Assembly (NCBI RefSeq): GCF_000812865.1
Contig: NZ_JSYL01000010.1
Location: 1 to 64,000, forward strand
Source: Kaistella jeonii
GTDB taxonomy: Bacteria > Bacteroidota > Bacteroidia > Flavobacteriales > Weeksellaceae
Reading direction: 5' to 3'
Length of the DNA: 64,000 bases
The translations under genes and the position numbers were made by a program. Numbering within the stretch: position 1 is the stretch's first letter; every line of letters begins with the position of its first letter. The notes beneath the pieces were generated by a model, which was given only the letters and a program-made list of their open reading frames with translations, had not been told where the DNA came from and ran no database searches. Positions 20,078-22,147 of the stretch are shown in pieces.

Positions 20078-20082
20078 TACAG

Positions 20083-20154
20083 AGCCAACTATGAGATTTG
20101 AACTCACGACCTCTTCCTTACCAAGGAAACGCTCTACCCCTGAGCTAAGTCGGC
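20083..20154 (-). tRNA. tRNA-Thr (GGT)
   Basis: A 72-nt cloverleaf with acceptor GCCGACT/AGTTGGC and anticodon stem-loop TTTCCTTGGTAAGGAA (anticodon GGT). The CCA is not encoded. It is last in the Thr-Tyr-Gly-Thr cluster and would precede tuf in the ancestral order. Confidence 0.93.
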
Positions 20155-20165
20155 GAAAAATTAAA

Positions 20166-20202
20166 AAAAAATCACAAGCCATAAAAATGATTGTGATTTT
20201 TT
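20166..20202 (-). terminator. Hairpin between tRNA-Gly and tRNA-Thr(GGT)
   Basis: AAAATCACAA and TTGTGATTTT arms with a 13-base loop and a following T-run look like an intrinsic terminator inside a tRNA cluster. It may reduce expression of the last tRNA or act in processing. Confidence 0.55.
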
Positions 20203-20206
20203 TGAG

Positions 20207-20279
20207 AGCGGAAGACGAGGGTCGAACTCGCGACATTCAGCTTGGAAGGCTGACGCTCTACCAACTGAGCTACTTCCGC
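20207..20279 (-). tRNA. tRNA-Gly (TCC)
   Basis: A 73-nt cloverleaf with acceptor GCGGAAG/CTTCCGC, T-arm GAGTTCGACCCTC and anticodon loop CTTCCAA (anticodon TCC). CCA is not encoded. Confidence 0.94.
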
Positions 20280-20362
20280 ATTTTTGTTTCCAAAAACTGT
20301 TGGTAAACGGTTTGCAAATTTAAAATAAATTTACAATCTCGCAAAATAAATAGAAAAAAATG

Positions 20363-20445
20363 TGGGGAGAGTAGGATTCGAACCTACGAAGTCGTAAGAC
20401 AGCAGAGTTACAGTCTGATCCATTTGGCCACTCTGGAATCTCCCC
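20363..20445 (-). tRNA. tRNA-Tyr (GTA)
   Basis: An 83-nt class II tRNA with acceptor GGGGAGA/TCTCCCC, a long variable arm (GTCTTACGAC) and anticodon GTA in ACTGTAACT. CCA is not fully encoded. Confidence 0.94.
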
Positions 20446-20464
20446 AATTTTATTTTTTTCAATG

Positions 20465-20538
20465 AGCCTCCAGAGGGACTCGAACCCACGACCTGCTGAT
20501 TACAAATCAGCTGCTCTAGCCAGCTGAGCTACGGAGGC
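20465..20538 (-). tRNA. tRNA-Thr (TGT)
   Basis: A 74-nt cloverleaf with acceptor GCCTCCG/TGGAGGC (one G-U pair), T-arm GTGGGTTCGAGTCCC and anticodon TGT in TTTGTAA. First tRNA of the cluster. Confidence 0.94.
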
Positions 20539-20577
20539 AAAGATTTTTAAAGAACTACTTATCTCTTTTTGCGAGTG

Positions 20578-20610
20578 CAAATATAAGTGAGTTTTTTTGA
20601 AATCCGCAAA
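20578..20610 (-). promoter_or_regulatory. Promoter of the tRNA cluster
   Basis: The -7 element TATATTTG (20585-20578) is preceded by TTTG 21 bp upstream (20610-20607). It lies about 40 bp ahead of tRNA-Thr(TGT) and inside the region after hpf. Confidence 0.6.
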
Positions 20611-20639
20611 TTATTTTGAAGATATTTTTATATTTTTTT

Positions 20640-20930
20640 TTAAGCCAGTTCTTTTTTCTTGATTAACAGCTTTTTAGCTACTTCAGCACACAAGTCTAAA
20701 CTCTCTTCAAAAGACGCAGAAGTCTTTTTTACGACGATATCATCACCCGGAACAGCCAAAAGTATCTCTACTGTTTTATTTTCTTTGTCTGATTTGTTCT
20801 CAACTTTCAGAAAAACTTTGCATTCTACTATTTTGTCAAAATAGTTTTCGAGTTTGCCCAATTTTTTTTCAATATGTTCTTCAAGCGGTGCGTGTGGCGT
20901 CAATCCCATTGACTGTACTGAAATTTTCAT
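20640..20930 (-). CDS. hpf: Short-form ribosome hibernation promoting factor
   Basis: A 96-residue HPF/RaiA-family protein that binds the 30S decoding region in stationary phase and protects idle ribosomes. The beta-alpha-beta-beta-beta-alpha fold is visible (MKISVQSMGLTPHAPLEEHIEKKL ... VEILLAVPGDDIVVKKTSASFEESLDLCAEV). It lacks the C-terminal dimerisation domain of long HPF. Its ATG overlaps the xerC stop by 4 bp (ATGA), so the two are translationally coupled. It sits in the conserved rpsU-xerC-hpf-tRNA-tuf order. Confidence 0.9.
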   Translation of the reverse strand: MKISVQSMGLTPHAPLEEHIEKKLGKLENYFDKIVECKVFLKVENKSDKENKTVEILLAVPGDDIVVKKTSASFEESLDLCAEVAKKLLIKKKELA

Positions 20931-21817
20931 AAATCTACATTTTTTTTAGCTCGAGGGTGAGCTTTGTTAAACACTTTTTTTAATTGTTCAATATTGGCAG
21001 TCGTATAAACCTGCGTTGAGGCAAGCGACGAATGACCCATGATCATCTTCACTTTAGAAATTTCAGCCCCATGCTCTAAGACGTGTGTTGCAAAACTGTG
21101 TCTTAAAATATGGGGACTTTTTTTCTTCTTTGAAGTTACAAGACTAAGATAGTAATTTACGGTAGAATAGACAAACTTATCATTCAAAATTTTGCCCTTT
21201 GGATTAATGAAAAAGTACATCTCCCACTCTTTCAGCGGATTCCTTTCAGTTAAATATTTTCGAAAATTAACAGCGAGTTTTTCTGAAATAGGAATAATTC
21301 GAGCCTTGTTGCCTTTTCCGATCACTTTCATCTCCATTTTGCTAAAATCTACATTTTCTAAAAGCAAATTCACCAGTTCTGCACGCCGCATTCCTGTTTG
21401 ATAAAGTGTTTCGATGATGAGTTCTTTTAGGAAACTGCCTTTCTTTGGATGGAATTCCGGCAGTTGTTGATTGCTCATTTCCTCTTCAGAAAAAGGAATT
21501 TGTTTCTCGGCGTAAAATTTTAAAGATTGAATGTTTTCTAAAGGAGATATTTTAACCTGACCAATTTTCAACAGAAAAAGGTAGAAACTTCTCAGAGAAG
21601 AGAGTTTGCGGTTGATAGAGCGTTTAGCGATTTTTTTTTCACTTAGGGCAACCATAAAATTGCGGATGATCTTTTTGTCAACCAGATCAAAATCCTGATG
21701 CGCTTCCGATTTAAGCAGAAAGAGAGAGAAATCCTCCAGATCCTTTCTGTAACTCGTCAAAGTGTGTGGTGAATACCGTCTTTCGACCGCAATATATTCC
21801 AAAAATCGTTCTATCAT
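20927..21817 (-). CDS. xerC: Tyrosine recombinase XerC/XerD
   Basis: A 296-residue tyrosine recombinase, probably the chromosome-dimer resolvase. I chose ATG 21817 (MIERFLEYIAVERRYS); the earlier ATG adds seven unsupported residues. The N-terminal SAM-like DNA-binding domain (about 1-90) is followed by the catalytic domain with Arg in TGMRRAEL, Lys in GKGNKARIIPI, HILRHSFATH (His, Arg), MGHSS (His) and the Tyr nucleophile in VYTTAN. The position between rpsU and hpf is shared by many Flavobacteriia, which supports a housekeeping rather than phage or integron role. Confidence 0.9.
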   Translation of the reverse strand: MIERFLEYIAVERRYSPHTLTSYRKDLEDFSLFLLKSEAHQDFDLVDKKIIRNFMVALSEKKIAKRSINRKLSSLRSFYLFLLKIGQVKISPLENIQSLKFYAEKQIPFSEEEMSNQQLPEFHPKKGSFLKELIIETLYQTGMRRAELVNLLLENVDFSKMEMKVIGKGNKARIIPISEKLAVNFRKYLTERNPLKEWEMYFFINPKGKILNDKFVYSTVNYYLSLVTSKKKKSPHILRHSFATHVLEHGAEISKVKMIMGHSSLASTQVYTTANIEQLKKVFNKAHPRAKKNVDL

Positions 21818-21831
21818 AATATACCAACAAA

Positions 21832-21869
21832 AAATCACTCTTCAAATATAACTATTTGAAAAGTGATTT
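21832..21869 (-). terminator. Terminator between rpsU and xerC
   Basis: AAATCACT and AGTGATTT arms, extended by TTCAAATA/TATTTGAA around TAAC, form a long stem followed on the minus strand by TTTTTG. It lies 27 bp after the rpsU stop. Confidence 0.75.
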
Positions 21870-21895
21870 AGGTATTTTGCTAAGAAAAATTTGAC

Positions 21896-22093
21896 TTAAG
21901 CCTGCTCTTCTTTGCTCAAAAGTCTTTGTTTGTGAGCAGCTTTCACATTGGCCTGTCTTTTAACAACAGACGGCTTGTTGAATTGTTGACGACTTCTAAG
22001 AGCTCTAATAGTTCCTGTTTTGTCAAATTTCCTTTTATATTTTTTTAAGGCTCTGTCGATGGATTCACCATCTTTTACTGGGATTATTAACAT
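21896..22093 (-). CDS. rpsU: 30S ribosomal protein S21
   Basis: A 65-residue bS21 with the family pattern IPVKDGESIDRALKKYKRKFDKTG ... RSRQQFNKPS. In Bacteroidota bS21, with bS6 and bS18, sequesters the anti-Shine-Dalgarno tail of 16S rRNA, and rpsU is reported as a gene that still carries an SD-like site for autoregulation. Here TGAGA lies 8 nt before the ATG (22102-22106). The transcript starts very close by, from a consensus promoter, so the leader is under 25 nt. The gene is divergent from the helicase gene. Confidence 0.95.
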   Translation of the reverse strand: MLIIPVKDGESIDRALKKYKRKFDKTGTIRALRSRQQFNKPSVVKRQANVKAAHKQRLLSKEEQA

Positions 22094-22101
22094 AATTTAC
22101 A

Positions 22102-22106
22102 TCTCA
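22102..22106 (-). promoter_or_regulatory. Alternative Shine-Dalgarno-like site TGAGA of rpsU
   Basis: TGAGA, 8 nt upstream of the rpsU ATG, stands where an SD would lie, though the canonical GGAGG is absent. I recall that some Chryseobacterium relatives have a 16S tail ending in UCUCA with a matching TGAGA at rpsU. The 16S gene is not in this window, so the pairing is inferred. Confidence 0.6.
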
Positions 22107-22116
22107 TTTTGGATTG

Positions 22117-22147
22117 CAAAAGTAAGATTTTTTTTCGGAATGGCAAA
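22117..22147 (-). promoter_or_regulatory. Consensus promoter of rpsU
   Basis: TTTG (22147-22144), 19 bp, then TACTTTTG (22124-22117) is a perfect fit to the Bacteroidota primary promoter. Divergent from it on the plus strand, TACTTTTA (22156-22163), with TTTC 19 bp upstream, can serve the helicase gene. Confidence 0.8.

Follow-up and report, generated by a model that had tools for sequence, protein, structure and literature searches.

The 16S rRNA of Kaistella jeonii ends in a changed anti-Shine-Dalgarno (anti-SD) sequence, and the leader of the rpsU gene, which encodes ribosomal protein bS21, matches this tail over 12 bp. This match was restricted to rpsU among the starts tested, and tail and leader covary in relatives. 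Together, these findings very probably represent the Chryseobacterium-group version of the bS21 autoregulatory switch of Bacteroidota. The anti-SD is among the most conserved bacterial sequences, and Bacteroidota retain it though their ribosomes hardly use SDs.

The window, that is, the whole stretch of 64,000 nucleotides that we analyzed, comes from a draft assembly of 35 contigs totalling 3.26 Mb, and it adds one more case to a system already described in the literature. A UCUCA anti-SD with a complementary rpsU SD is known from Chryseobacteria and genera related to them (Jha et al. 2021, as cited in PMC9976891 and PMC8710568), and where these two papers cite that work, one alternative core is named and all such organisms are said to keep the match. 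The tail core, the rpsU SD and the bacterial group are all the same in the window and nothing essential is different; the fully complementary sequence 5′ of rpsU is present, with 12 pairs, 5 nt from the ATG. The sequence-only reading of this DNA, which had raised a possible co-evolved tail, was right, but the pair had already been published (PMC9976891, PMC8710568). The window also belongs to the groups noted as lacking the CCUCC anti-SD, which include Chryseobacterium, Elizabethkingia, Riemerella, Blattabacterium and Weeksella, among others (PMC6107228, PMC10783764). One of these studies found no variant anti-SD that was perfectly complementary to a variant SD (PMC6107228), although its genome-wide motif method would be unlikely to detect a single-gene case such as rpsU. 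What would go beyond these papers, and is described below, are further matched pairs, exceptions to the match and the co-occurrence of SD loss with tail drift, some of which Jha et al. may already report.

Another close known system is that of Flavobacterium johnsoniae, in which the 16S tail is seated in a pocket formed by bS21, bS18 and bS6, and in which ribosomes without bS21 translate rpsU better (PMC9976891). As in that system, the window has a single gene with an extended SD, here of 12 bp; residue 54 of bS21, in contrast, is His in the window and Tyr in F. johnsoniae.

The rpsU leader and its promoter

The region 5′ of rpsU reads, 5′ to 3′, TTTGCCATTCCGAAAAAAAATCTTACTTTTGCAATCCAAAATGAGATGTAAATT-ATG, and the locus contains the following features:

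21832-21869, minus strand: probable rpsU terminator, a 17-bp hairpin with a T-rich tail 3′ of it
21896-22093, minus strand: rpsU, encoding bS21, 65 aa, residue 54 His (KAAHKQR); Pfam PF01165, 60 bits; from the ORF list
22094-22116, minus strand: 5′ leader at its maximum extent, 23 nt after the -7 element; putative transcription start
22099-22110, minus strand: extended Shine-Dalgarno AAAATGAGATGT, 12 nt, ending 5 nt 5′ of the ATG; complement of the 16S tail ACATCTCATTTT
22102-22106, minus strand: TGAGA core, complement of the changed anti-SD UCUCA
22117-22124, minus strand: TACTTTTG, -7 element of the TAnnTTTG form
22144-22147, minus strand: TTTG, -33 element, 19 nt from the -7 element

TTTG/TAnnTTTG is the promoter form of Flavobacterium, and TTTG-N19-TACTTTTG (22147-22117, minus strand) fits this form. 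The promoter ends 23 nt from the rpsU ATG, which limits the leader to 23 nt or less; the start of transcription itself would be placed by analogy with work in F. johnsoniae. A promoter just upstream and a leader shorter than 25 nt had been proposed from the sequence, as had a TGAGA 8 nt ahead of the ATG, and both were borne out, the latter at 22106-22102 on the minus strand with the 8-nt spacer TGTAAATT separating it from the ATG at 22093. TGAGATG precedes rpsU in 36 family genomes, and TAnnTTTG lies upstream in all 36 of them, usually 10 nt off (0.9% in shuffles).

At its other end, the probable terminator hairpin (21832-21869) would make rpsU monocistronic. The same strand carries, 3′ of rpsU (window 20082-22093), one gene for a tyrosine recombinase and one for a protein of the ribosome-hibernation type (Pfam S30AE), with four tRNA genes beyond them. 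If the recombinase ORF began at its first GTG (21838), its start would fall within the terminator hairpin, so a later ATG start is likelier. Elsewhere in the genome, prfB is uninterrupted, giving a full-length match with no internal stop and no programmed frameshift; prfB without the frameshift has been reported for Weeksellaceae (PMC8710568).

The 16S rRNA tail is complementary to the rpsU leader

The single assembled 16S gene (G000:C2:390395-391911, minus strand; extra rRNA operons may be collapsed in this 35-contig draft) ends in ...ACATCTCATTTTT, with a 3′ end that reads GGCTGGAACATCTCATTTTTGAGACT and a tail of GGCUGGAACAUCUCAUUUUU. UCUCA replaces CCUCC in the tail core (G000:C2:390387-390419, ACATCTCATTTTTG), while most sampled Flavobacteriaceae-like genomes (f3) read GGCTGGAACACCTCCTTTCT at the 16S 3′ end. 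The changed UCUCA tail proposed from the window was thus found in the one assembled copy, and CCUCC, named beforehand as a finding that would refute the proposal, is absent there; complete family members have the same core in every 16S copy listed.

The tail ACATCTCATTTT is the exact reverse complement of the leader AAAATGAGATGT, and the two form 12 consecutive Watson-Crick pairs, with a predicted duplex energy of -14.4 kcal/mol. Published values for rpsU SD complementarity are 9-13 bp and -14 to -21 kcal/mol (PMC9976891). The A/U-rich helix of the window is nevertheless weaker than those of most SD-bearing CCUCC relatives, which lie at -18 to -22 kcal/mol.

A separate observation concerns the 16S trailer. 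GAG stands just 3′ of the tail in 65/65 genomes and might base-pair with the anti-SD's invariant CUC, and in the window genome (L001 1480-1510) UGAGA folds onto UCUCA in a predicted hairpin, so precursor 16S may mask its own anti-SD.

The match is restricted to rpsU among the starts tested

TGAGA alone is common, with 91 copies on the two strands of the window. The possibility that it precedes rpsU by chance for this reason was rejected, since the 12-mer AAAATGAGATGT is found once in the window and is conserved at a fixed distance from the promoter. In the SD regions of 41 ORFs of the window that encode 100 aa or more, no match to the genome's own tail was longer than 6 nt (AAAAAT), which is no better than in a mock region further upstream. 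The match at rpsU is 12 nt long. The ORF comparison confirms, within the window, the earlier remark that most other starts show no SD. Across the genome, the 8-nt core pattern TGAGATGTN{2,10}ATG gave 5 matches versus 3 for a reversed control, and rpsU was the only gene start among the 5; the other four matches to TGAGATGT..ATG were rejected as gene starts, being tiny ORFs or lying inside an acetate-kinase-like gene. By both measures, the 41 window ORFs and the genome-wide core pattern, rpsU alone carries a strong SD.

The leader might be a simple strong SD that ensures high bS21 expression with no feedback, and constitutive and regulated use of the rpsU SD are indistinguishable from sequence alone. 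We consider this very unlikely, however, since no other window gene has such an SD, and since the rpsU SD of F. johnsoniae is poorly used by ribosomes that contain bS21 and is boosted by bS21 loss (PMC9976891).

Matched tail and leader pairs across the family

The rpsU leaders and 16S tails of about 60 relatives were collected by pattern and family searches and then paired. Class A, UCUCA combined with TGAGATG, comprises 23 genomes in which tail and leader were both read. Class B, found in four Apibacter genomes (g17), combines UCUCUUUUUU with AAAAAAGAGATGT (UCUCU/AAGAGA), and class C, in Profundicola (g19) and g29, combines UCUCUUUUAU with ATAAAAGAGATGT over 13 bp, the tail of Profundicola and its kin being matched by the leader sequence ATAAAAGAGA. 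Class D consists of g10, whose tail UCUCUUAUAU makes partial matches of 6-9 bp. TGAGA before rpsU, whose absence from close relatives would have spoken against the sequence-only reading, is kept in those that share the tail and becomes AAGAGA in relatives where the tail is UCUCU.

In the 23 UCUCA genomes, the mean longest match of the leader was 11.9 bp (-14.7 kcal/mol), compared to 7.0 bp for UCUCU tails and 3.4 bp for CCUCC tails, and the leaders of the other classes also fit their own tail class best. The observed fit among 30 SD-bearing genus representatives was reached by 0/100,000 shuffles; as this shuffle takes no account of relatedness, more weight falls on the column counts. When the register was picked by best fit, which left a few mismatched cells, position 1535 was found as C-G or U-A, positions 1539 and 1543 were each found as C-G, U-A or A-U, and tail positions 1536-1538 were invariant across the compared pairs. 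We also noted that contig L070, labelled as a Candidatus Gastranaerophilales MAG, carries an rpsU leader pattern of the Apibacter/Profundicola type; its bin label may be wrong.

Shared ancestry alone could give a similar picture if tail and leader were both conserved in one clade and their pairing was not selected. Indeed, in a 16S tree built with the tail excluded, the UCUCA core forms a single clade (support 1.000), so its 23 genomes are not independent; Apibacter adjoins it (0.945), and g19/g29, g10, g22 and Weeksella form a deeper group. Nonetheless, this explanation appears highly improbable, since matching AAGAGA leaders accompany the UCUCU tails of Apibacter and Profundicola/g29, other positions of the tail are matched as well (1543, and partly 1541 in g10), and in some changed-tail lineages it is the leader that has decayed instead. 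A parsimony reading would make UCUCU the ancestral state of the family, with one origin of UCUCA in the core and another in g22/Weeksella, the latter without a matching rpsU SD, although the moderate supports and the fast-evolving symbionts make the root of the 16S tree uncertain.

Exceptions and drift of the tail

Some relatives have a changed tail and no rpsU SD. In Weeksella (g28) the tail is UCUCAUAUUU and the leader ends in AAAATAGATAGATT, with a longest match of 5; g22, which has a UCUCA tail, reads AAATAGATAAAATT, with a longest match of 5-6; and an Apibacter-like genome, G016, has the changed tail AUAUCUCUUUU. These three, together with g10, which has only a partial SD, temper the published claim that the match is kept by every organism of this kind, and they indicate that the switch is dispensable in relatives.

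Elsewhere in the order, both parts could be read in 24 genomes outside the family. Nine had a strong rpsU SD and all of these (9/9) had CCUCC, whereas 9 of the 15 genomes without a strong rpsU SD had another core; six families were involved. Among these 24 genomes, changed tails were therefore seen solely where the rpsU SD is missing (Fisher p = 0.007 for SD loss against changed core, a value that overstates the evidence because several genomes share a family). The cores other than CCUCC were UCUCC (f6 and f7), ACUCC (f4), CCUCA (f12), UCUCU after A-U-A or A-C-A (f11 and f16) and, in one f16 genome, UCUCA. The f16 genomes measure 0.3-0.6 Mb and look like those of insect symbionts. A base other than C at 1535 was rare elsewhere in the class. 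A search of f24, which has UCUCC tails, for AAGGAGRTGT..ATG returned chance-level matches of mixed types alone. In G716, from another Bacteroidia family (f80), two 16S ends on contigs C26 and C27 have differing tails, AATCTCTTTACT and AATCTCCTTATT, which reflects either mixed rRNA operons or contamination.

The idea that the tail changed merely because SD pairing had become useless, leaving the rpsU match as a chance remnant, would fit the changed tails without an rpsU SD in f4, f6, f7, f11, f12, f16, Weeksella and g22, but for the window's clade it is scarcely credible given that a match of 11-14 nt is kept in about 25 genera and with three tail forms; it may yet explain what first allowed the tail to vary.

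Residue 54 of bS21

Tyr54 has been reported as uniquely conserved in the bS21 of Bacteroidia, where it is characteristic but not necessarily indispensable. In F. johnsoniae it stacks on A1534 of the tail (PMC9976891). The bS21 of the window has His54 in place of this tail-contacting Tyr54, so its tail pocket may differ. The TGAGATG genomes of the family have His54 in 28/36 cases and Tyr54 in 8/36, while Tyr54 is found in 12/12 genomes with AAGAGATG (UCUCU) and in 12/13 family genomes without either SD. A candidate role for His54 is adjustment of the pocket to the new tail.

Discussion

By analogy with F. johnsoniae, the UCUCA tail would normally be held in the bS21/bS18/bS6 pocket, and the ribosomes would thus not use SDs. 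On ribosomes lacking bS21, the tail would be free to pair with the 12-nt rpsU SD, and bS21 would be translated; as the ribosomes fill with bS21, the tail would again be hidden and rpsU translation would drop. If rpsU is, as we infer, the main SD that fixes the sequence of the tail, then tail and SD would change together, or the tail would drift after SD loss.

A broader reading, which in our judgment might equally well prove right or wrong, joins these observations. In the SD-blind Flavobacteriales, the rpsU SD would be the main constraint on the 16S tail, and its loss would lead to drift (UCUCC, ACUCC, CCUCA, UCUCU). In one family, tail and SD would have shifted in step through at least three pairs that are poorly compatible with one another (CCUCC/GGAGG, UCUCU/AAGAGA and UCUCA/TGAGA), and the replacement of Tyr by His at residue 54 would have come mostly with UCUCA/TGAGA. 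If one gene does hold the tail in place, lineages with and without the rpsU SD would reveal what keeps the anti-SD conserved, and the matched pairs of tail and SD that exist in nature would be ready-made tools for testing bS21 feedback.
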